Of a stretch of 64,000 nucleotides of DNA, positions 1 through 61,879 are shown in pieces. Source of the DNA: Flectonema sp. DT1601 (lineage: Eukaryota; Euglenozoa; Diplonemea; Diplonemida; Diplonemidae); the NCBI GenBank assembly GCA_964019425.1, contig OZ025830.1, positions 769,501 through 833,500 of the forward strand, written 5' to 3'. Position 1 is the stretch's first letter, and every line of letters starts with the position of its first letter. Below the pieces are notes generated by a model that worked only from the letters and a program-made list of their open reading frames with translations, did not search any database and was not told the origin of the DNA. The position numbers and the translations under genes are program-made.

Positions 1-672
1 CCACCATCGAACTGGACTTCTCCACCGTCCAACTGGACTTCTCCACCATCGAACTGGACTTCTCCACCGTCCAACTGGACTTCTCCGCCATCGAACTGGA
101 CTTCTCCACCGTCCAACTGGACTTCTCCACCATCGAACTGGACTTCTCCACCGTCCAACTGGACTTCTCCGCCATCGAACTGGACTTCTCCACCATCGAA
201 CTGGACTTCTCCGCCATCGAACTGGACTTCTCCACCGTCCAACTGGACTTCTCCGCCATCGAACTGGACTTCTCCACCATCGAACTGGACTTCTCCACCG
301 TCCAACTGGACTTCTCCACCATCGAACTGGACTTCTCCACCGTCCAACTGGACTTCTCCGCCATCGAACTGGACTTCTCCACCATCGAACTGGACTTCTC
401 CGCCATCGAACTGGACTTCTCCACCGTCCAACTGGACTTCTCCGCCATCGAACTGGACTTCTCCACCGTCCAACTGGACTTCTCCGCCATCGAACTGGAC
501 TTCTCCACCGTCCAACTGGACTTCTCCACCGTCCAACTGGACTTCTCCGCCATCGAACTGGACTTCTCCACCATCGAACTGGACTTCTCCACCGTCCAAC
601 TGGACTTCTCCTCCATCGAACTGGACTTCTCCACCATCCAACTGGACTCAAGCTCCATCCAACTCGACTTCG
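1..672 (+). repeat. 21-bp coding tandem repeat, 32 units
   Basis: Perfect 21-base periodicity begins at base 1, so the array probably extends beyond the window. The first 30 units differ only in the first nine bases (CCA/CCG/CCT, CCA/CCG, TCG/TCC), and every variant still encodes Pro-Pro-Ser. The remaining twelve bases (Asn-Trp-Thr-Ser) are constant. The last two units (631-672) are degenerate and grade into unique sequence. Confidence 0.95.
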
Positions 673-1704
673 TTTGAATGTCATGTAAGTCGTGAGGAGC
701 AGGGGAAGTGGACGGAAGAACAACGCATGTATTGTTGCCTTCACAACGGTGTTGGGTGCAAGGCGAACAAGTACCAGATCGACTGCTTCATGTATTCAAA
801 GACGTGGAGTGAGGCTGAGAAGGAATACTGCTGTGTGACTGCTGATATTGGATGTGCTGTTAACTGCTCGGTTGAGAAAGCACTCCTGTCGAAAAAGGAG
901 ATGGCGAGTTGTTGCAACCGAACGGGTCTGCACTGCGATGCGAAGGCTGCTGCTGCTGATGTTGCTGCCGCCGCTGCTCTGGTAGCAGAGGAAGAGGGAA
1001 GCGGTTTCAGACTCAGCTTCCGTGGTGACTGGAAGACCGTGTCACGCAACCCGAAGAGGAAGGTGCAGCTCTTCAGAATGTCACTGATCGCTGCGTCAAG
1101 GACTTTACAGAAAGAGCCGTCGAGCCTGATTGTGACTTACTTGGGATGGAAGAAGCCGGGTGACAAAACCCCGTCAGCTGACGAGATTTCTAAGTGGGGG
1201 TACAATGTGCCTAGTGCTTGGAACGTTGACGACAGCAAGTCAGTTGATGCTGTGAAGGATGCCACTGCCCCTTCACCTATTTCGAAAAGAAGAGCAGTGT
1301 CTGTGTTGGGAGAGACAGTGACTGAGGCGGCAAAGGGTAAGGACGGACTCTTCTTCGATTACTACATCACCGGAAAGGACGTGGACGTGATCAGTGGTGA
1401 GGTTGAGGAGTCGAAGAAGACTGTTTTACAGAATAACAACGAAGGTTACTCACTCATCTTGCCTGGGGCCAGCGTGACTCGCGTAAGTTCCGAAGAAACA
1501 AGTGCACCGTCTTCTTCTTCAAGCAAGGGATGGATCTTTGCTCTTGTTGGATCACTAGTCGGTCTTTGTGCCGTCGGTGGAATGGTTGCCTTGTACCTGA
1601 ACAAAAGGACTAAGAAAGTTGATCAAAATGAGATCTATAGCTTTAATGATTTGAAAGAAATTGAAGCTGTAAAGTTTAGTGAACTTGCAGATGACAAAGT
1701 GTAA
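1..1704 (+). CDS. Surface-type type I membrane glycoprotein with PPSNWTS repeats, 3' part
   Basis: The frame is open from base 1 to the TAA at 1702-1704, so the 5' end and any signal peptide lie outside the window. Bases 1-672 encode 32 copies of a 7-residue unit, PPSNWTS, with the last two diverged (PPSNWTQ, APSNSTS). Each copy holds an N-x-T sequon, so the arm would carry dense N-glycans if secreted. Next come three cysteine modules of pattern CC-x5-GC or close to it (YCCLHNGVGC, YCCVTADIGC, SCCNRTGLHC), an Ala-rich linker, a domain I do not recognise, a Ser-rich stalk, one membrane segment (WIFALVGSLVGLCAVGGMVA) and a short charged tail. The first ATG in this frame is at 727, but the repeat upstream is in frame without a stop and varies only at synonymous sites, so it is coding. 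Surface adhesin or coat protein is an inference. Confidence 0.8.
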   Translation, partial: PPSNWTSPPSNWTSPPSNWTSPPSNWTSPPSNWTSPPSNWTSPPSNWTSPPSNWTSPPSNWTSPPSNWTSPPSNWTSPPSNWTSPPSNWTSPPSNWTSPPSNWTSPPSNWTSPPSNWTSPPSNWTSPPSNWTSPPSNWTSPPSNWTSPPSNWTSPPSNWTSPPSNWTSPPSNWTSPPSNWTSPPSNWTSPPSNWTSPPSNWTSPPSNWTSPPSNWTQAPSNSTSFECHVSREEQGKWTEEQRMYCCLHNGVGCKANKYQIDCFMYSKTWSEAEKEYCCVTADIGCAVNCSVEKALLSKKEMASCCNRTGLHCDAKAAAADVAAAAALVAEEEGSGFRLSFRGDWKTVSRNPKRKVQLFRMSLIAASRTLQKEPSSLIVTYLGWKKPGDKTPSADEISKWGYNVPSAWNVDDSKSVDAVKDATAPSPISKRRAVSVLGETVTEAAKGKDGLFFDYYITGKDVDVISGEVEESKKTVLQNNNEGYSLILPGASVTRVSSEETSAPSSSSSKGWIFALVGSLVGLCAVGGMVALYLNKRTKKVDQNEIYSFNDLKEIEAVKFSELADDKV

Positions 1705-30508: not shown

Positions 30509-33500
30509 ATGTATCGGGTATTACTCTCCTCGAGTTGTATTGCGTTGAGTGTCTTGGGGCAGACAGATCCGCAAATAATTTGCGGAAACGACTTCGCACA
30601 AACTGGTACGAAAGAATTAAACGTCCAGGATATTAGAAAGCAGTTGGAGAATTTCTGTGATGAAGTAACAGATTTTCACAGAAATGGTCATGACTCGGAT
30701 GTTAAAGTTCATTTTGCAACAGATGATGACGTTAAGGGAGAGGCTTTAACTCTAAGTGAGGTTAAGTTCGATTTGTACGCTGAGATGCTCGCATCGAAAT
30801 CAACAGCTATCGAAATACCAAAACTAGACACTCAATGGGTTGAGGGAGTTAAAGAACATTTAGTTGACTTATCAGACCCAGAAGTTAATATAAACCTTGA
30901 TAACATATACGATATTTGGAGAAAACGTGATCTCGAAGGAAGACTTGTCGGGATTCCATTTCAACCAAATCGAATAACAATGTATTACAGAAAGGATTTA
31001 TTTGATAAATATGGTCACACTTGGAATCATGACTCGTGGGAAGTATTTGAGGAGACTCTTCTTGACATTCAAACAAAAGAAAGAGCTGACAGATTATCAA
31101 AAGGTCAGAATGATGACTTTTGGGGATTCACAATCCCAACTGACGACTCATCAAATCGAATGATGTACATGCTCGTCTCTCTCTTATCAGGTCATGATGG
31201 TGGTGGTGTTGTCGAACCTGATGGTCGAGTTACGATAAACAATCCGAAAGCCATTAAAACTATTTCAAGATGGGCCTCATGGTTTGATTCTTCATCTAAA
31301 TATAACATTGTTTCTCCAGAATGCTTTGGTCAGAGTACAAGTGGTGCTACTAACTTCTTTCTCGATGATAAATCCGCTGCGATAATCGTCTGGACGGCTG
31401 GACACTCAGAAAGGATGAATAACAAGATGAAAGAAGACCCTTCCTTTGTAATTCGCACTGCTCCAATTCCTGGTAAGAATGCATCTGGTTGTTCTGGTGA
31501 CTGGTCTCTAGCACTATCTCGTTATGCGAGAGAGAGAGAAGAAGCCCACAGATGGATGAGATTAATAGTTCAGAACGCCAAGAACTTACCAGGTAGACAA
31601 GAACCGATTGACATGAGAGTCAGAAATGATCCAATCCTGTGGGCTGACTACTGTACAAAGAATCCAATTATTTGTAAAGGATTTGAAGAATACCCCGACT
31701 GGTGGTCAAAGTTATCTCACAGACCTTCAATTGGTTGTGGAACACTTTATTCCTCATGTGCACGTACTGTTTACCAACACATGTACTCCGTCTTCCAACT
31801 CGGTGTTGACCCAGCAACTGCTGCAGCAAACATGGAACGAGATCTCAATGTTATGCTTGGTTATTGGGAAGCTTCTTCTTTGTCATCGACTCAAGATGCT
31901 TGGGAGACTGACTCTCGTATTACATTGGTGGTGGTTGCTTCGGTTGGTTTCGTGGTTCTCGCGTTTTTGTTTTTATTTAATCAACATAGATCCAGACACA
32001 TGAGAAAACCAAACCACTTCTCAGCACCCATTGCCGTAGTATTTGCGATTGTTTTGAGTGCAGCGATGGCTGGAGTTCTGTCAGCAGTGATCGTAGAATC
32101 ACACAACACGACTCGATTATTGTCTGATAAGTTAGCTGAAGATATTAGAATTCAATCTCTTAGAAGTGTTCAATATTCAATACAAGGAACTATCGATAGT
32201 TTAGTCGGCTCAACTAGTCGAAAAGCAATTAGCGACTTAGCAGTGGCAAAGATGAAAACTGATTTTGGAAAGATGGGACTCGACCCGAGAACACTGGTCT
32301 TACTTATAGATAGAAACTATCCTTATAATGTACTAGTGAGTTCTGATAAGGTACGACAACCAGAAAGGGTAAGTGTGATTTCAGAATCCGGAACATATAC
32401 TCATTTATATCCCTGGACTGCAGCAATACTCGAAACTATCTCTGATTGGGAAACTCGTGTCATCGACGGTATTCATTTGGAGAAGAACGGAATAGATTCC
32501 AACCTTCTGTCAGTCGACTATTCATCTGCTCAGGGCAGCAGAGATATTTCTTACTTACTGTGCTACATGACTCCGAGTGTTGTTATTCAAGAAGAAGCTG
32601 ATGCATCGATGGAACGATCTCTTAACTTTTCTCTAACTCTATCTGCTGTTGCAATTATCATAATCGTCTCTCTGATTGTGATGTTTACAGCTCCTCTAAT
32701 TGCACTCGCTACTGATATGGAATACGTCAGATTGTTTGAAATGGAAAGAGTGACATCTGCTGCTGGTAATTCAAGGTTCAGGTTCATGACTGAAATATCA
32801 TCACTGCTATTAGGATTTGAGAATATGTGTGAAGTGCTAATCGAGTACAAGGCTTACTTACCAAAAAGTATTTTTGCTGACAGTGACACTGACGTTGATG
32901 AATCGATTGTTAACGGAAGAGTTAATAATTGTGGATCATCACACGTTGTGACTAATCAATCATCACTTTCACAACGATCAGATAGCAGTATCACTGTCAG
33001 TACTAATCACGGTGCTATAAACGTTAGACATAATGTAAGGGTCGGAGTAGATCTCGGTAAACTTCGTACAGCTAGAGGTGCTTGCGTAGTTTTTCAACTT
33101 CGAAATGGAAATTCTATTTTAGCAAAGGCAGATCAGCCTCAAGAAATAGTCAAAACACTTCTTTCAACAATGGAAGAAGCGGCTATCAGACAAAAGGGTG
33201 TTCTACACACACTAAGCGCCAGATCACCAACAGAGTTTTCAATCTCGTGGGGGATTGTTGGACCAGATGTCAGTTGTTGTTACAAAGCTGCGAGGACTGC
33301 TATTCGAATTAGGGATGCTGTCGAATCCTCATCGATATTAATAAAGACATCTGGGAATGATCAGGCGAAGAAGTTACAATTCTCAATGGTTTTATCAGGA
33401 GCTAAATGTAAAGCAGGAAACATGGGAACAACTCACACTCGTGGGTTTGGAATGACAGGTGAGATATGTAATAGTTTAACAATAATGAAGGCCATCGGTG

Positions 33501-33931
33501 ATGACTTCGCCGCCATCTCAAATGTTATTCTGGTTGACCATCCCGCAGCTGAAACACTTCACGACTTTGATATGAGAGCCGTTGAGATTGTTAGAATTCG
33601 TCAAACTGCTCTGCTGTTAAAACAACTTCTTCAAGAAAGCTCAGCTGGTGAAGCTGAAGCTGGTGAATGGATGTATCAAATACAGACAACTCCTTCTCGT
33701 TCTACTCCTTTAGATAAATGTTTTCAAGACTTGCTAGCGGGTGCTAATATCAATGATGTTGTTGAAGAGCTCACGAAATCAATTACTCAAGAAAGAGATA
33801 TTCTAATGAAAGCAATCTCTGATCGATTAGCTCTCAGAGCCAAGAAAGTCAGCATCACTCAAACATACCAAGTTGTGGTTAGTCCTCACTTGTTTGAACA
33901 ACAATCAGAAGAACAGCTCCTCGTTGCTTGA
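30509..33931 (+). CDS. Receptor: bacterial-type solute-binding domain, sensor domain and pseudo-cyclase
   Basis: 1140 residues. Signal peptide 1-17 (MYRVLLSSSCIALSVLGQ). Residues about 25-450 resemble family-1 extracellular solute-binding proteins of sugar ABC importers (GRLVGIPFQPNRITMYYRKD, LFDKYGHTWNHDSWEVFEET, WGFTIPTDDSS, FLDDKSAAIIVW, IPGKNASGCSGDWSLALSRY). TM1 at 471-491, TM2 at about 508-530, a second external domain at about 535-705 (CACHE-like by position), TM3 at about 710-735. Then the RFRFMTEISSLLLGFENM / EYKAYLPKSIF linker common in kinetoplastid cyclase-like receptors, and at about 845-1030 a class III cyclase-like fold (GACVVFQLRNG, AKCKAGNMGTTHTRGFGMTG, EICNSL). Both metal-binding Asp positions look replaced (FxD by FQL; GDxF by SPTEF), so catalysis is unlikely. 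It probably senses a small ligand outside and signals by other means. Confidence 0.75.
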   Translation: MYRVLLSSSCIALSVLGQTDPQIICGNDFAQTGTKELNVQDIRKQLENFCDEVTDFHRNGHDSDVKVHFATDDDVKGEALTLSEVKFDLYAEMLASKSTAIEIPKLDTQWVEGVKEHLVDLSDPEVNINLDNIYDIWRKRDLEGRLVGIPFQPNRITMYYRKDLFDKYGHTWNHDSWEVFEETLLDIQTKERADRLSKGQNDDFWGFTIPTDDSSNRMMYMLVSLLSGHDGGGVVEPDGRVTINNPKAIKTISRWASWFDSSSKYNIVSPECFGQSTSGATNFFLDDKSAAIIVWTAGHSERMNNKMKEDPSFVIRTAPIPGKNASGCSGDWSLALSRYAREREEAHRWMRLIVQNAKNLPGRQEPIDMRVRNDPILWADYCTKNPIICKGFEEYPDWWSKLSHRPSIGCGTLYSSCARTVYQHMYSVFQLGVDPATAAANMERDLNVMLGYWEASSLSSTQDAWETDSRITLVVVASVGFVVLAFLFLFNQHRSRHMRKPNHFSAPIAVVFAIVLSAAMAGVLSAVIVESHNTTRLLSDKLAEDIRIQSLRSVQYSIQGTIDSLVGSTSRKAISDLAVAKMKTDFGKMGLDPRTLVLLIDRNYPYNVLVSSDKVRQPERVSVISESGTYTHLYPWTAAILETISDWETRVIDGIHLEKNGIDSNLLSVDYSSAQGSRDISYLLCYMTPSVVIQEEADASMERSLNFSLTLSAVAIIIIVSLIVMFTAPLIALATDMEYVRLFEMERVTSAAGNSRFRFMTEISSLLLGFENMCEVLIEYKAYLPKSIFADSDTDVDESIVNGRVNNCGSSHVVTNQSSLSQRSDSSITVSTNHGAINVRHNVRVGVDLGKLRTARGACVVFQLRNGNSILAKADQPQEIVKTLLSTMEEAAIRQKGVLHTLSARSPTEFSISWGIVGPDVSCCYKAARTAIRIRDAVESSSILIKTSGNDQAKKLQFSMVLSGAKCKAGNMGTTHTRGFGMTGEICNSLTIMKAIGDDFAAISNVILVDHPAAETLHDFDMRAVEIVRIRQTALLLKQLLQESSAGEAEAGEWMYQIQTTPSRSTPLDKCFQDLLAGANINDVVEELTKSITQERDILMKAISDRLALRAKKVSITQTYQVVVSPHLFEQQSEEQLLVA

Positions 33932-34895: not shown

Positions 34896-36710
34896 CTGCT
34901 TTCATATATTTTTTTTTGTTGCAGTCTCTTCTCGTTACTTTATTCTAGTCCTCCTCGTTGTCGGTCTTCTTTGAATTGTTACCCTTCACTTAAATAATGG
35001 TTTTGCTTTCGAAAATATTATTTTTTAAAAAAAAAAAGGAAAATCTTTTTTTTAAAAAAAAAAAATCCGAGGGCGTTGTGTATAATTTTCCATTTTTTAT
35101 AGTGCTTTTTTTTTTTTTTGGGGAGAAAGCATGTCAGCAATGTGTTTTTACAACACATTGCGGTGCATGCCCGTCCTCAGCTTTAAAAAAAATAAATATT
35201 CGTATTGCGTATGACACTACTATGTGAATATGATGCGAATTTGTTGACAATTTTTTTCGTTTCCTCCCCTTTTTTTTTATTTCCTTTGAATGGCATTCAA
35301 AGAAAAAAACTCAACTTTCTTTTTACCAAAATCAATATTTTTTTTAAATCCACAACAAATCCTTTTTTTTTTTTTTTTTTTTTTTTTTGTTTGCTTTTTT
35401 TTTTCCCCCGATAACATCATAAAGGAAAACGAAAAAAAAAAAAAAAAAAAAAAGACAAAAAAAAATTGTCTCTTTTCTATGTGCTTTTTTTTCTAACCTT
35501 TGAGCTGAAAAGTTTGCATTTTTTTTTTTTTTTTGTTCATCTCGACTCTGTTGTGCAGTGATCAATCCCTTTATATTATAACGTGTATCTTTGTGTGGAA
35601 TGTGGCAGGTTCAAGGTTTTCGCTCTTGTTGAGGTTTTGGATGGGAATTTTCTATTCTATGAAAATAAAAAGTTAAAAATTTTCCATTCATTTTTTTTTA
35701 TTGCCGACGACAGCTCATTGTTAAGGTTAAGCGGTGAACACCTCAACTTCTTCCTTTTTTTCCTGCCTTGGGATTAGTGTGAAAATGGATTTCCTCAACA
35801 GTTTCTTATGCGGACTCTGAAAAGAACAGGGAAATGTCAAGGAACGAAAAAAAAAAATATCGAATCTCAACGTCTATTTTTTTTTTTTTTTTTCTACTCA
35901 AAAAAAAAAAAAATCCTAAATCCGACTTTAGTCTCAACGTTTTCAGTTGATAACCTGCAGTATTTATTTATTTATTTATTTGTTTGTTTCGTTTTTTTTT
36001 TTTTGGATTCCAAAGGCAGTCGTGAAGTTCCTTTATACGGCTTGGGGTAGAATGTGTTAATATCTCTGACACAACGGAAACGATACAATGACCAAAATTT
36101 GAAAAAAAAAAAAGTTTCTTTCCTTTTGTTTCCCCCAAAAAGCTACCATCCATTCATCCACACGTTTATATATTTTATTTTATTGTTATTCTTTCCAAGT
36201 GTTTGCTGGCTTTTTATTTTTTTTCAAAAGTCTTCCTTCTTGTATTCAGATTGTTCAATGTAGTGTCCAGTCTGTTCTTTCTGACTAGTTCGTCAGTACT
36301 ACCCCCAAGTGACTTATGACTCCTTGGAGTGCGTACTTTATTATACTAGTATGTTAAGTGTGTTGTTGTTGCTGTTTTTTCCCCTTCTTTTTTTCCTGTC
36401 TTCCATTTCTTTTTTTTTTCATTTTCACCAAAACCTGTTTTACAAAAAAATCATCATGAGCAAGCAAACTGTTTTAAGTCTCAAAAAGATGTTTTATTTA
36501 AGTGAAAACAGAACCGAACCTTTTTTTGCACGACAAAAAAAGGGTTGGGACATTATTAATGAATTTCTGTTTTTGCAAAGTTCAAGAAAATAAAAAAAAG
36601 AAATCTAAAAGAAGGGTAGTGTTTTTTTTTTTTTTTTTTTTTTTTTTGCTTCATTCTATTTTGACTATTTTTTCGAAAATTCGTTTTTTCTCTTCTTTTT
36701 TTTTATAGCA

Positions 36711-39392
36711 TATTATTCTGTCTGTCTCTGGGATTAGATAATGGATCCAGATCGTGTACAAAGGGGGTCCCTCAAGGATCTGTGCTTGGTCCTCTCTTAT
36801 TTCGGATCTTTGTCGACTCCCTGCCAGGTCTAATAAGTGATGCTGATCTCAGTGTTCTGTTTGCTGATGATCTTGCCGTGTTTCTGCAACATGAGAAGAT
36901 AGATGGGATCGAAGCGAAGGGCCTGTCCGTCATCTCTCAGATAGAAGGTTGGATGGTTTCCTCTAAGATGGAGGTAAACATGAAGAAAACAGAGTACGTT
37001 GCCTTTGGTAAGCGCATCTCTGGCTCCGATGTCGAATGGAGTAGGGCACCTCGCTTTTACTTCCCATCGTCTGTTGAAGAGTTACACATGCCTACAGGCT
37101 CTGCCGGTGCTCTCACTGAGAAGCTTTCTCCATCAATAGGGGCAGTTCTGGATCTCGCTGATGCTTTGCTGCCACTGGAGATTGATGGTTACCCGGTGAC
37201 GAGACGTTCTGACTTTGTCCGACTGGCCTGTGCTCGTAAGAGCAAAGAGTTCAGGCTGAAAGCAGCGATCCCGCTGAAACGTGTCAGGAGCGCGAAATAC
37301 CTAGGAGTTATCATTGATGACTCGCTATGCTTCGACGAACAGGTGGATAAGATTGTGAAAACAATTCGAGCTGGTTGCGGTTTACTCAAAATGTTCTCTG
37401 CCTATGAGGTCAAAACTGATACCCTTCGTCAGCTTGTAGATGGTGCAGTGTTATCTCGAGCGTTCTTTGGACTAAAGGCCTTTTCTCCCTTTTTGTCTGA
37501 TGCTCAGATCAAGCGGATCGAAGCGTGCTTGCGTCATCTAAGGATAAGACTCACTGGTTGCTCGTTCTCGACGAAGGATGTGGTGCTCACAGTTGAGTCG
37601 CGAATTCCACCGCTGCAACAAACGATATCTAGGCTCCTTGCCCTAGTTCATGAAGATTTGCTAAGGCGACAACCTGAATGTCCTTCATGGAGGCTGTTTA
37701 ACGGTGGTGAGAAGAAGAGACCATGGCAGACTAGAGTTGAAGCCTGTTCCTCGGAATTTTCTCTGTCAGAGCTTAGGTCCCAGAAAGTTCTGCCACATCA
37801 GTACCCTCCGTGGTCGAAGCATCCTCCTTTGGTTGTAAACACGTCCTGCGGTTATGACAAGACTGACACACCTGAGGAGAAGTATACTGTGGCGATGACG
37901 ACCCTCAATGAACTGCCCCCGTGTGTTGCTGAAGTCTACACTGATGCCTCGGTCTTCCATGACGAGGAGCGGGGATTATTATGTGGGGGGGCTGCTGTTC
38001 TGCTAGTTGCTGGCAAGGTCATTGAGAAGCTCTCCAAGTTCCAACCGTCCCTCACGATTTACAATGCAGAACAACTAGCACTATTGTCAGCCCTTGAACT
38101 ACTAGAGGAGAATCTTCATGTTGTTTCGCATGGCGTGATTCATATTTTCAGTGATTGTCAGTCGGCGCTTGCCTCCCTGCATAGGGGGCCATCCAGGCAG
38201 TCATCATCAACAAATCGTGAGATTTTTGAACGCTCAGTGCTTCTTGATAGGCCGTTGATTTTCCAACATGTCCCATCTCATTGTGGCATTGCAGGGAATG
38301 AACTGGCTGATACACTGGCAAAGAAGGCAGCCTTGCAATCAGTTGACCCTGAACTAACTCCGTATGATTTCAGGATGGCTCAATGTTGTATTAAGAAACA
38401 AGCAAATTGGAAGGCTATGGGTACTGTGGACTCTTCGCATTCATACAGCAAAGCGACTCTAGGATCTGGCCCTCAGCGTTTCCTTCCCTGTCTCAATAGG
38501 GGGCAGGAGGTAGAATTGTCTCGTCTGCGAACCTCTCACCACAGGCTTGTAAAGCTACCGAGGGTCACTGCGGGCTTTAAATGTTGTCTGTTCTGTGGCT
38601 TTCAGGATACCTCAACTGAGCATCTGCTGCTTGAATGCGTTGAGACCAGGGAATTAGTAAAGCAAACCATGAGATTTCCGACACCTGATGATGAGCTATC
38701 TCTGGATATGTTCTTTCGAACCGAATGGCAGCCTTTCACGTTGTTATTGATCAGCAAGCTTGATAATCATCTTAAAGAGTTATCTGACAATCCGTTGTTG
38801 TTGAAGTTTCCGCTTCAGGGTATTTTTGTGAGGAAGAAACTAATCACACACATCGAAAGGAAGACAAGTTTCTCGCTACTGGGTTCTGATGTGAAGAAAT
38901 ATGTTATGGAACTTATTGATAACGCTTATAAAGCTACCGATTTAAATGTTGTTATTGACGACCTTTCTATGGTTAATGTGCTGGTCAATCCTAGCTGGTC
39001 GGAATCCAAGCTTTCTAAGTTCCTCTCTCGCCTAAGTCGCCTCCTGCGAAGTAATCCCCGAGGTAGATAATGAACGTCTCTTTCCTCTAGTGTAATTTCT
39101 TATTTTATTTATTAGTATCATTTCTATTACTTATCATTACTTTATTTCTTATTTTCTGATCTAATGTGGCGTGTTCTCCCTCTCTTTGGCGAAAATTGGC
39201 GTTATCAGCCGTCTCTAACACTGTCTGCTCGCGTGGACGGTGGGTTTAGGTAGTCATTTGTTCCAGGTTATTCTACGTCTCTTATCGTCTGTGAGAGTCT
39301 CACGGTTGCTGGTAGCGATATAACTGTTACTCTGTGAGCTTTTCCTGGCTTTTGGCTTCCTAGGCTTCGTAAATAAATAAATAAATAAATAA
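36711..39392 (+). mobile_element. 5'-truncated LINE (non-LTR retrotransposon), ingi-like with RNase H
   Basis: Starts abruptly after a poly-T tract at about 36711-36722, inside the RT domain just before motif B, as expected for 5' truncation during target-primed insertion. It ends in a (TAAA)n tail (about 39369-39392) after a 300-base 3' UTR. The remaining ORF is uninterrupted. RT plus RNase H plus a CCHC-like C-terminal finger is the layout of the ingi/L1Tc clade of trypanosomes. I see no clear target-site duplication. Confidence 0.85.
36722..39070 (+). CDS. LINE ORF: RT (C-terminal part), RNase H, zinc finger
   Basis: Open for about 780 codons to TAA at 39068-39070, with no start codon because the 5' part is missing. 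RT motifs in order: CTKGVPQGSVLGPLLF (motif B), FADDLAVF (motif C, FADD), MKKTEYVAFG (D), YLGVIIDDSL (E). RNase H follows at about 37930-38330: YTDAS, NAEQLALLSALELL, FSDCQSAL, and HVPSHCGIAGNELAD, so the D-E-D-D set is intact. A terminal finger reads CCLFCGFQDTSTEHLLLEC. Without the endonuclease and RT N-terminus it cannot move itself, but the absence of stops suggests a fairly recent copy. Confidence 0.85.
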   Translation: MSLGLDNGSRSCTKGVPQGSVLGPLLFRIFVDSLPGLISDADLSVLFADDLAVFLQHEKIDGIEAKGLSVISQIEGWMVSSKMEVNMKKTEYVAFGKRISGSDVEWSRAPRFYFPSSVEELHMPTGSAGALTEKLSPSIGAVLDLADALLPLEIDGYPVTRRSDFVRLACARKSKEFRLKAAIPLKRVRSAKYLGVIIDDSLCFDEQVDKIVKTIRAGCGLLKMFSAYEVKTDTLRQLVDGAVLSRAFFGLKAFSPFLSDAQIKRIEACLRHLRIRLTGCSFSTKDVVLTVESRIPPLQQTISRLLALVHEDLLRRQPECPSWRLFNGGEKKRPWQTRVEACSSEFSLSELRSQKVLPHQYPPWSKHPPLVVNTSCGYDKTDTPEEKYTVAMTTLNELPPCVAEVYTDASVFHDEERGLLCGGAAVLLVAGKVIEKLSKFQPSLTIYNAEQLALLSALELLEENLHVVSHGVIHIFSDCQSALASLHRGPSRQSSSTNREIFERSVLLDRPLIFQHVPSHCGIAGNELADTLAKKAALQSVDPELTPYDFRMAQCCIKKQANWKAMGTVDSSHSYSKATLGSGPQRFLPCLNRGQEVELSRLRTSHHRLVKLPRVTAGFKCCLFCGFQDTSTEHLLLECVETRELVKQTMRFPTPDDELSLDMFFRTEWQPFTLLLISKLDNHLKELSDNPLLLKFPLQGIFVRKKLITHIERKTSFSLLGSDVKKYVMELIDNAYKATDLNVVIDDLSMVNVLVNPSWSESKLSKFLSRLSRLLRSNPRGR

Positions 39393-60329: not shown

Positions 60330-60643
60330 GACCAAACTTTCACTTTGCGTTTCCGCATTACATCACCGCCGTTGAAATTAAAACAGCGAACAGACTCTAA
60401 ACAACCCAACTCTCTCCCGATTAGATTACCTGAATGGTTCCCAACATACTAAACTAGATTAGATATAAGTTAATTCTGTTTTTTAAACCAACGAGTCTGT
60501 TTTAGATTAGTGTTTTATAAGTAACTTTTTATTCACTCCACGCACAACATAAATATGTCTTCACTTGCTTTGTTGAGTCTTTTGAGGGATCAAAAAAACG
60601 ACACAAGTTTTTATTTTTATAGTTCATAAAACCAAATATAACA
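60330..60643. other. Intergenic
   Basis: Short A/T-rich spacer; candidate acceptor TTTTTATTTTTATAG ends at 60622, 21 bases before the PARP gene's ATG. Nothing else seen. Confidence 0.6.
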
Positions 60644-61879
60644 ATGCCGGCTAATAAAAAAAGATTGAAATGTGATCCTCAATGGTTTTATAATATCGAT
60701 GGTGGGTGGGAGGAGTTTGCAGAAACTGACGCAGCGATGATTGAAAGGTTGTTTGGATCGAAGAGTAAGGTCGTTGCGACGACAGACTTGTCTTTTAATA
60801 AAAAACATAAAAGTGTTTACGAATTCGATTTCAAGAAAATGAAACAAACAAATAGAGATTCAAACAACACTCGAAAGATTAAACGAGTCGACCCAACAGA
60901 GCAATCTGACTCTGAAGAAGATGACGACAGCGACAGTGATGATGCAGAATACACCTGGGAACATCAGGATAATTTCGGTGTTTGGGTTGCTCTTTATGAC
61001 GAAGACAATGAGTTGGTTGAATCATTGTTTGCTAAGAAGACAAAGAAAGGTCAAACATTTAAAACTAAAGAACTAACATTTAATCAAGGTTATAATTCAC
61101 AATACATCTTTGACTTTGATAATATGACTCAGAGGAATTCAGATTCCGGAACTGTTCGTAACATCCGCCGATCGAAAAATGTTCAACAAGTTTGGAATGT
61201 TAAAAATTACGGAGTGAAGAAAGAGACGCTCTCTAAGAATATGAAACTCTCTGGTGACATACTCGCGACACCCGACACTTGGGATCCAACATCGAAGAAG
61301 TCTCCTGCTGTTGATCTTTTTAAAGTCAGCCCTTCATCAAAAGAGTACACAAATATCGTTCAGCCATTCTTTAAGACGTTTGGACACGGAAAGTCAAAGC
61401 CAACTATCAAGTCTTTGACCAGAATTCAAAATTATCAACTTTGGCCATTTTACGCCCTCAACCGCGACAAAATTGAGAAGAAGAATACGGGAAAGGGAGG
61501 AGCGAATGAAATGTTTTTATTTCATGGAGCCAGAGTAAAACAGAACATGGATGCAATTATTAACTCCGGGTTTGATACTCGAGTTGCTGCTAATGGTTTG
61601 TGTGGAACTGGTACGTACTTTGCTGTGAACTCTTCCTACAGTGATTCTGGTTATGTTTATCGTCACAAAGACGGATCAAAAGAAATGTTAGTATGTCGTG
61701 TTCTTGTTGGGAGGTACACCGTCAAACAAGGAAACGATAGAAGACCACCTCCACTGGATCCTAAAAAACCAAACGATGGGCTTTACGATTCCGTTGTAGA
61801 CACCATCAATCAACCCGTGATGCATGTCGTGTTTTATGATCATCAGGCTGTGCCGGAGTATCTTATTCACTACAATTAG
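60644..61879 (+). CDS. WWE-WWE-PARP: mono-ADP-ribosyltransferase
   Basis: 411 residues. WWE domain 1 at about 9-75 (PQWFYNIDGGWEEFAETDAA, YEFDFKKMKQTN), an acidic linker (EQSDSEEDDDSDSDDAE), WWE domain 2 at about 105-170 (YTWEHQDNFGVWVALYDEDN, YIFDFDNMTQRN), then a PARP catalytic domain from about 215. NAD-binding His294 (FLFHGAR) and Tyr325 (GTYFAVNSSYSDSGYV) are present. The position of the PARP1 glutamate is near M393/H394 (PVMHVVFYDHQA), so there is no Glu. By analogy with PARP10/12/14 this predicts transfer of single ADP-ribose units, not chains. WWE domains bind iso-ADP-ribose in poly-ADP-ribose, so this protein may read one signal and write another. Single exon; acceptor AG at 60621-60622. 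Confidence 0.92.
   Translation: MPANKKRLKCDPQWFYNIDGGWEEFAETDAAMIERLFGSKSKVVATTDLSFNKKHKSVYEFDFKKMKQTNRDSNNTRKIKRVDPTEQSDSEEDDDSDSDDAEYTWEHQDNFGVWVALYDEDNELVESLFAKKTKKGQTFKTKELTFNQGYNSQYIFDFDNMTQRNSDSGTVRNIRRSKNVQQVWNVKNYGVKKETLSKNMKLSGDILATPDTWDPTSKKSPAVDLFKVSPSSKEYTNIVQPFFKTFGHGKSKPTIKSLTRIQNYQLWPFYALNRDKIEKKNTGKGGANEMFLFHGARVKQNMDAIINSGFDTRVAANGLCGTGTYFAVNSSYSDSGYVYRHKDGSKEMLVCRVLVGRYTVKQGNDRRPPPLDPKKPNDGLYDSVVDTINQPVMHVVFYDHQAVPEYLIHYN

Follow-up and report, generated by a model that had tools for sequence, protein, structure and literature searches.

A tandem 21-bp array that reaches into the beginning of a 64,000-nucleotide stretch of contig OZ025830.1 of the diplonemid Flectonema sp. 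DT1601 (hereafter the window; C51:769501-833500 in a genome of 89.5 Mb and 92 contigs) probably encodes the N-glycan-bearing bottlebrush arm of a type I membrane glycoprotein, one of a family in which the arms appear to be interchangeable. Judging from the sequences of its paralogues, selection acts on the pentapeptide P-S-N-W-T, most strictly on its N and T, and the heptapeptide as a whole is not kept.

Gene structure and extent of the array

The window opens inside the array, and its positions 1-672 are the 3' end of a longer one (Table 1). The original prediction had raised the possibility of an upstream in-frame stop or a missing start; both were looked for, and the frame was stop-free up to an in-frame ATG at C51:768544, 957 nt 5' of window base 1. 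The whole ORF of 886 aa holds 77 sequons altogether and encodes, in order, a signal-like start (hydrophobic after the ATG, MHQSKILVFLLTACAAAGQF, and judged by eye from this stretch), 73 N-W-T units (codons 26-536; C51:768619-770151), a Cys-rich region, a membrane-adjacent domain, one transmembrane (TM) segment and a short tail, the part from the Cys-rich region to the tail being referred to here as the anchor. Translation bore out the proposal that the 21-bp array is in frame with a downstream Cys-rich, single-TM protein. It also placed a sequon in every unit of positions 1-672, with the correction that the 32 N-W-T sequons first reported are 31 N-W-T (1-651) and one N-S-T (652-672). TRF applied to positions 1-648 gave a period of 21 with 30.9 copies (score 1051). 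The array region is open in all six reading frames, so that openness by itself proves nothing about the frame; what identifies the frame is that it runs on into the conserved anchor and that the variation falls at third codon positions.

A search of the genome with the unit pattern returned 293 forward and 10 reverse places (9 and 3, respectively, for the controls). Among the 100 matches listed, 72 fell in the C51 array, 19 in the C60 paralogues and 9 elsewhere, and among these the unit is, as far as seen, not a dispersed minisatellite. One 17-mer, CCCCCTTCAAATTGGAC, occurred once each on C5, C18, C24, C25, C33, C34 and C46 among the unit-pattern matches listed, and probably represents a dispersed repeat with no relation to the arm.

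Table 1. Features of the C51 gene (window positions unless a contig position is given)
Feature	Position	Strand	Basis
ATG and remaining 42 units	C51:768544-769500, before window	+	genome contig
(PPSNWTS)n array, 3' 31 of 73 21-bp units, final one PPSNWTQ	1..651	+	translation, TRF
Degenerate end unit APSNSTS, N-S-T sequon retained	652..672	+	translation
Cys-rich membrane-proximal region, di-cysteine modules (CC-x5-GC type)	673..939	+	12-paralogue alignment
Conserved membrane-adjacent domain, predicted ferredoxin-like strand/helix order	991..1491	+	models, low to middling confidence
Single transmembrane segment GWIFALVGSLVGLCAVGGMVALYL	1528..1599	+	hydropathy, model helix
Short cytoplasmic tail, final residue Val	1600..1701	+	translation, 30-member comparison

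Many Cys columns of the Cys-rich region were invariant across the 12 aligned paralogues, and a simple motif count gave two to seven di-Cys modules per anchor. The models of the membrane-adjacent domain were weak (mean pLDDT 58.7 and 56.4), the second model, of the domain alone, bringing no improvement. The window protein has one hydrophobic segment at its C-terminus, where the top hydropathy windows begin at residues 511-513 of the window ORF, and the model helix 288-318 agrees with this TM assignment. All 30 family members compared (L013-L042) end in a hydrophobic residue (I in 22, V in 7, L in 1) over 19 distinct last-30 stretches; such C-terminal residues recall ER-export signals or PDZ ligands. 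When C51 was compared with the 11 C60 copies, the anchor gave dN/dS ratios of 0.33-0.38, which indicates constraint. Among the C60 copies themselves, which are little diverged, the range was 0.22-1.00, and one pair has no synonymous difference; dS between paralogues reached 0.40.

Unit haplotypes and their order in the C51 array

Of the 73 C51 units, 71 read PPSNWTS, the first being APSNWTS and the last PPSNWTQ. Since the protein differs only in these two units, the earlier statement that variation in the main array is all synonymous is true. Variation in the array body is confined to three third-codon positions: three haplotypes cover 70 units (26, 23 and 21 copies), one further synonymous variant (CCT) was found, and the codons for N, W and T show no variation in any of the 73 units, even at synonymous sites. 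As evidence for selection, however, this synonymy within a single array is weak because the array is homogenised; that all three polymorphic sites are third positions has a chance probability of about 0.03 (0.026) by simple counting.

The order of the haplotypes is not random, same-haplotype neighbours being avoided: identical units are adjacent in 4 of 72 cases, against 22.3 in shuffled arrays (z -5.5). Neighbour avoidance was also seen in three of the 11 other paralogues (C60:529k, 533k and 523k; z -2.3 to -3.3), with z between -1.4 and +0.7 in the remaining eight arrays. The longest repeated block in C51 comprises 16 units and is present twice (mean 6.5 and maximum 15 in 500 shuffles), which, together with the neighbour avoidance, fits growth of the array by multi-unit blocks.

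Sequon retention across paralogues

The comparison set consisted of the C51 gene and 11 C60 copies with PSNWT arms (12 genes, 682 units), with units defined in each gene as the longest run of N-x-S/T at a spacing of seven. The sequences compared for C60:523k and C60:529k are cut off at the 5' end, and the NSS unit at the arm-anchor junction in the C60 copies, whose unit window overlaps the anchor, was excluded. Asn and Thr were each found in 682 of 682 units, and the remaining core positions were nearly as stable, with P in 678, S in 674 and W in 673 units (V in seven, L in two), so that non-synonymous departures at P, S and W number four, eight and nine, in 19 units altogether. All seven W-to-V changes lie in the initial PSNVTS unit next to the leader and thus probably reflect one inherited change. 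A 14-residue gap is absent from all 12 arrays; no unit within an array therefore lacks its sequon.

The two spacer residues after T were far more variable, with 11 and 6 amino acids across the 12 paralogues in gene-specific combinations (Ser-Pro, Tyr-Ala, His-Ala/Lys-Ser, Tyr-Pro/His-Ala and others). When alternative codon states were counted per gene, the ratio of synonymous to non-synonymous states was 22:0 for N and T, 70:16 for the five-residue core and 23:86 for the spacer codons, the last being indistinguishable (p 0.16) from the unconstrained expectation of 73% non-synonymous. The 22:0 for N and T does not stand for 22 independent events, since the paralogues are related; counted once per family, the ratios were 3:0 for N and T and 3:22 for the spacer. 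The invariance of N and T, while the spacer varies freely between paralogues, argues that the sequon and not the whole heptapeptide is kept by selection, and homogenisation would give each gene a spacer of its own. P, S and W approach the invariance of N and T, which suggests that something beyond a bare N-x-T is also selected. The original prediction of selection for the peptide during homogenisation consequently stands for the sequon, which appears to be under strong purifying selection, and falls for the unconserved spacer.

The residue at +3 points in the same direction, as Pro at this position hinders N-glycosylation. Eleven amino acids occur at +3, and Pro in none of the 682 units, so that N-x-S/T with neither x nor +3 being Pro is satisfied throughout; Pro does occur at +4 in every one of the 12 genes (268 units), and 38 of the 70 gene-by-codon classes at +3 are one step from Pro. 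Among the 10 genes for which the whole arm was available, its length varied between 22 and 99 units, in agreement with the variable stalk length first proposed, here among paralogues of one genome.

A common anchor with different arms

Searching the genome with the anchor gave 88 matches, and at least 46 loci covered more than 200 of its 343 residues (the 42 shorter matches being omitted from this count), none of them with an internal stop. The 11 C60 copies, ten of them clustered at 498-534 kb and one at 733 kb, were 77-82% identical to C51 in this search. More distant relatives carry other N-sequon arms. The arm of a C16 relative (60% in the anchor) is built from SNWT, NWS and NQT units, and in the partial sequence of this arm all 56 Asn lie in sequons, with Pro at +4 in 54 cases and at +3 in none, and a C27 relative (34% in the anchor) has a partial arm with 15 of its 16 Asn in N-F-T. 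Cys-rich repeat arms were found in the C5, C49 and C85 members, and the C26 member combines Cys-rich repeats with three sequons per unit (arm partial). The C13 member bears a Ser/Thr/Pro arm (SPTSSPPTSSP..) without N-sequons, and a long arm is absent from the portion examined of the C4, C20 and C74 members. As an architecture this is one conserved anchor with arms of several kinds, and the anchor may thus function as a common mount on which arms are interchangeable.

The C13, C20 and C74 members (L026, L029 and L031; minus strand) are interrupted by 94, 209 and 111 nt, respectively, in phase 0 and with GT-AG ends, at a common position 5' of the Cys modules. Removal of these stretches restores the frame, and the transcript-derived protein P0036 is continuous across the junction (..PCEPNPCPDTT..), which makes them likely cis introns. 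A similar interruption site occurs in L028, with a less clear fit.

Alternative explanations

The arm might be selected as a peptide in its own right, for example as a Trp-Pro periodic ligand or adhesive fibre in which the sequon is incidental. The rarity of departures at P, S and W and the aromatic residue (F) retained at X in C27 would be consistent with such a role. We consider it unlikely, as the departures that do occur strike P, S or W and never N or T, the C16 arm trades N-W-T for N-W-S and N-Q-T while keeping every Asn in a sequon, and the PSNWT, C16 and C27 arms all lack Pro at +3.

An O-glycosylated mucin-type stalk, where P, S and T matter and N-W-T is one way of spacing them, is less probable still. 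Arms of Ser/Thr/Pro type without N-sequons do occur on the family anchor, in the C13 member and in P0036, but in the PSNWT genes the spacer S/T is swapped for Y, A, H, K, G or N and the sequon Asn is never lost. A selfish or neutral minisatellite within a gene, whose uniform peptide reflects recent expansion and homogenisation only, would account for the uniform N, W and T codons and the duplicated 16-unit block of C51 and is nevertheless highly improbable, because N and T remain fixed and the spacer unconstrained across paralogues with an anchor dS of up to 0.40.

Proposed function of the arm

Under the preferred reading of an N-glycosylated arm, the pre-protein would enter the ER by its putative signal peptide, and oligosaccharyltransferase (OST) would place N-glycans on the arm Asn residues, seven apart. 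The Cys-rich and membrane-adjacent domains together with the single TM segment would hold the protein at the plasma membrane, where the Pro-rich, closely glycosylated heptads could keep the arm extended as a bottlebrush in the glycocalyx. The repeated blocks and unit numbers suggest that the array gains and loses blocks of whole units, by which the frame would be kept and each gene homogenised. As the paralogue comparison shows, selection purges units in which N or T is lost or Pro arises at +3, and leaves the spacers to drift and become gene-specific. The anchor would serve dozens of genes in this way, including those with other kinds of arm.

Trp at X lowers occupancy at some sequons, and the seven-residue spacing may limit full glycan occupancy. 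With so much P, S and T in the units, the predominant glycans could also be O-linked. Three STT3 genes and one OST48 gene were found in the genome. In passages of a T. brucei study (PMC5724017), sequons with or near acidic residues are assigned to STT3A and others to STT3B, and STT3 is described as the sole identifiable OST subunit, in which T. brucei differs from the present genome with its OST48. Given that an acidic spacer residue occurs in just 2 of the 682 units, STT3B-like transfer is a testable guess.

At full extension a polypeptide spans about 0.3 nm per residue, by which the 511 arm residues of C51 would reach about 150 nm. The cell coat of the prokinetoplastid Papus is 30-35 nm thick according to passages of PMC7859406, and the comparison suggests that the arm might extend only in part, lie flat or occupy a single region of the cell.

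Relatives and resemblance to known systems

A profile of 12 members matched 8 proteins among 5.8 billion, four of them from ENA contigs and identical to family members of this genome. Two matches were EukProt transcripts, P0036 (45%) and P0037 (29%), of which P0036 combines the family anchor with a Met-Ala-Pro/Ser/Thr/Gln arm (MAPGTQS/APSRQS) without N-sequons. P0038 and P0039 have only the di-Cys modules in common with the family, and the PSNWT arm is absent; P0038 resembles it through repeated W...CC-x5-GC modules (profile match 9.4e-42). A single-sequence protein search retrieved only the window's own protein among the best 7997 candidates scored, and the PDB sequence search gave no convincing relative (best match E 0.46). 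Pfam searches of the 12 members at E up to 1 named nine families, none convincing (best 7.9e-4, in one member). A match to the Herpesvirus gp350 C-terminal family (22.5 bits, below the cut-off of 26.4) was rejected as explained by repeat composition. A SEA domain, considered because of the order of elements, was unconfirmed, with no Pfam match at E up to 1 and SEA not named among the matches listed for the weak membrane-domain models.

Transmembrane mucins consist of a repeat arm, a membrane-proximal SEA domain and one TM segment. The family resembles them in its long, variable-number Pro/Ser/Thr-rich arm, its membrane-adjacent domain (ferredoxin-like in weak models), single TM and short tail, and differs in its N-sequons every seven residues, in the di-Cys modules adjoining the arm and in the missing Pfam SEA match; its arm has the P, S and T of O-glycosylated mucin PTS repeats, but the spacer S/T is unconserved. 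Near systems include the membrane-adjacent ferredoxin-like domains of PCDH15 and cadherin-23 and a chain of the dystrophin-glycoprotein complex. Coral galaxin is a di-cysteine repeat protein, and the nine Pfam families named under the same E limit of 1 include no galaxin model. The VSG, procyclin and mucin coats of trypanosomes, which are GPI-anchored, are likewise multigene glycoprotein families of euglenozoan cells; the present family differs in having a TM segment and tail, and none of them was among the nine Pfam families for the 12 members. Bodonin of Bodo saltans, as described in passages of PMC4728078, is also a multicopy euglenozoan family and a predicted glycoprotein, with a repetitive extracellular part rich in Ser, Thr and Asn, but its canonical form averages seven TM helices, against one here. 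Bodonin, DGF-1 and PSA were absent from the 8 profile-search proteins and from the Pfam rows at E up to 1.

Among the open-access papers listed, we found no description of N-sequon repeat arms or of a diplonemid surface family like this one, and little on diplonemid cell-surface proteins; the D. papillatum genome paper (PMC10161547) does not use the terms glycoprotein, glycosylation, adhesin or cell coat in its main text. A family of single-TM proteins with a common anchor, interchangeable arms and a putatively selected N-sequon lattice, and without a Pfam model, would be new. More speculatively, and with less than even confidence, this diplonemid may possess a modular coat in which N-sequon, Cys-rich and Ser/Thr/Pro arms are mounted on one anchor, and in which N-linked brushes (PSNWT, SNWT/S with NQT, and NFT) originated or were re-tuned on more than one occasion. 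On this speculative reading, selection would maintain the sequon lattice and leave spacer and unit number free, giving each gene a brush length and charge of its own, and the family would be the N-linked counterpart of a transmembrane mucin. The 682 repeats constitute a natural experiment within one genome on the residues that a glycan arm needs, and a testable case for N-glycans, besides O-glycans, building long brush-like stalks, for which PSNWT could serve as a marker peptide in glycoproteomics.

Genomic context

The pattern that we take to be the 3' half common to euglenozoan spliced leaders matched 727 places in the genome with at most one mismatch (none for the reversed control), many of them, among the matches listed, in tandem at about 610-623 bp. 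The 39-nt exon (AACCAACGATTCTAAAGCT..TTTATTG, followed by GT) is of diplonemid type and shares its repeat unit with 5S rRNA. The Diplonema exon presumably differs from it by two bases; the Diplonema pattern as assumed had no exact match in the genome, nor had a kinetoplastid-type pattern. In D. papillatum the 39-bp leader is linked to 5S and U2, according to passages of PMC10161547. U2 snRNA was not found in the present repeat unit, a 700-base stretch in which 5S alone reached the Rfam gathering score, and the U2 linkage is a trait of D. papillatum that is not known to define diplonemids. One dispersed spliced-leader exon, at L078 (C3:496581-496680), runs directly into a short leader and ATGGCTGG.., an arrangement that reverse transcription and insertion of a trans-spliced mRNA would be expected to leave; further spliced-leader matches scattered over the genome may be retrogenes of this kind.

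Five minus-strand ORFs of at least 170 residues were found in the window, each overlapped by a longer plus-strand ORF, and the genes are intron-poor. A PARP at positions 60623-61876 matched EukProt proteins at 71, 57 and 43% as well as those of Bodo saltans (39%) and Neobodo designis (34%), and grouped with two EukProt rows in a tree, which does not discriminate between diplonemid and kinetoplastid. A kinetoplastid or bodonid host, which the one-strand, intron-poor genes and the Bodo and Neobodo matches first suggested, was rejected in favour of a diplonemid on the strength of the spliced leader, the OST48 gene and the likely introns. In the PDB the PPR neighbours matched mostly plant and designed proteins, along with a trypanosome assembly factor (E 5e-4), and were uninformative about taxonomy. 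On C51, 5' of the gene (L009:2994-9749), two long ORFs resemble a non-LTR retrotransposon, the second having GDVERNPGP close to its start, presumably a 2A-like motif. Within the window, a 1140-aa ORF at 30509-33928 contains an extracellular solute-binding domain of bacterial type (SBP_bac_1, 39.4 bits) that might serve a receptor as its sensor, and an ORF with reverse transcriptase and RNase H at 36665-39067 belongs to a retroelement.
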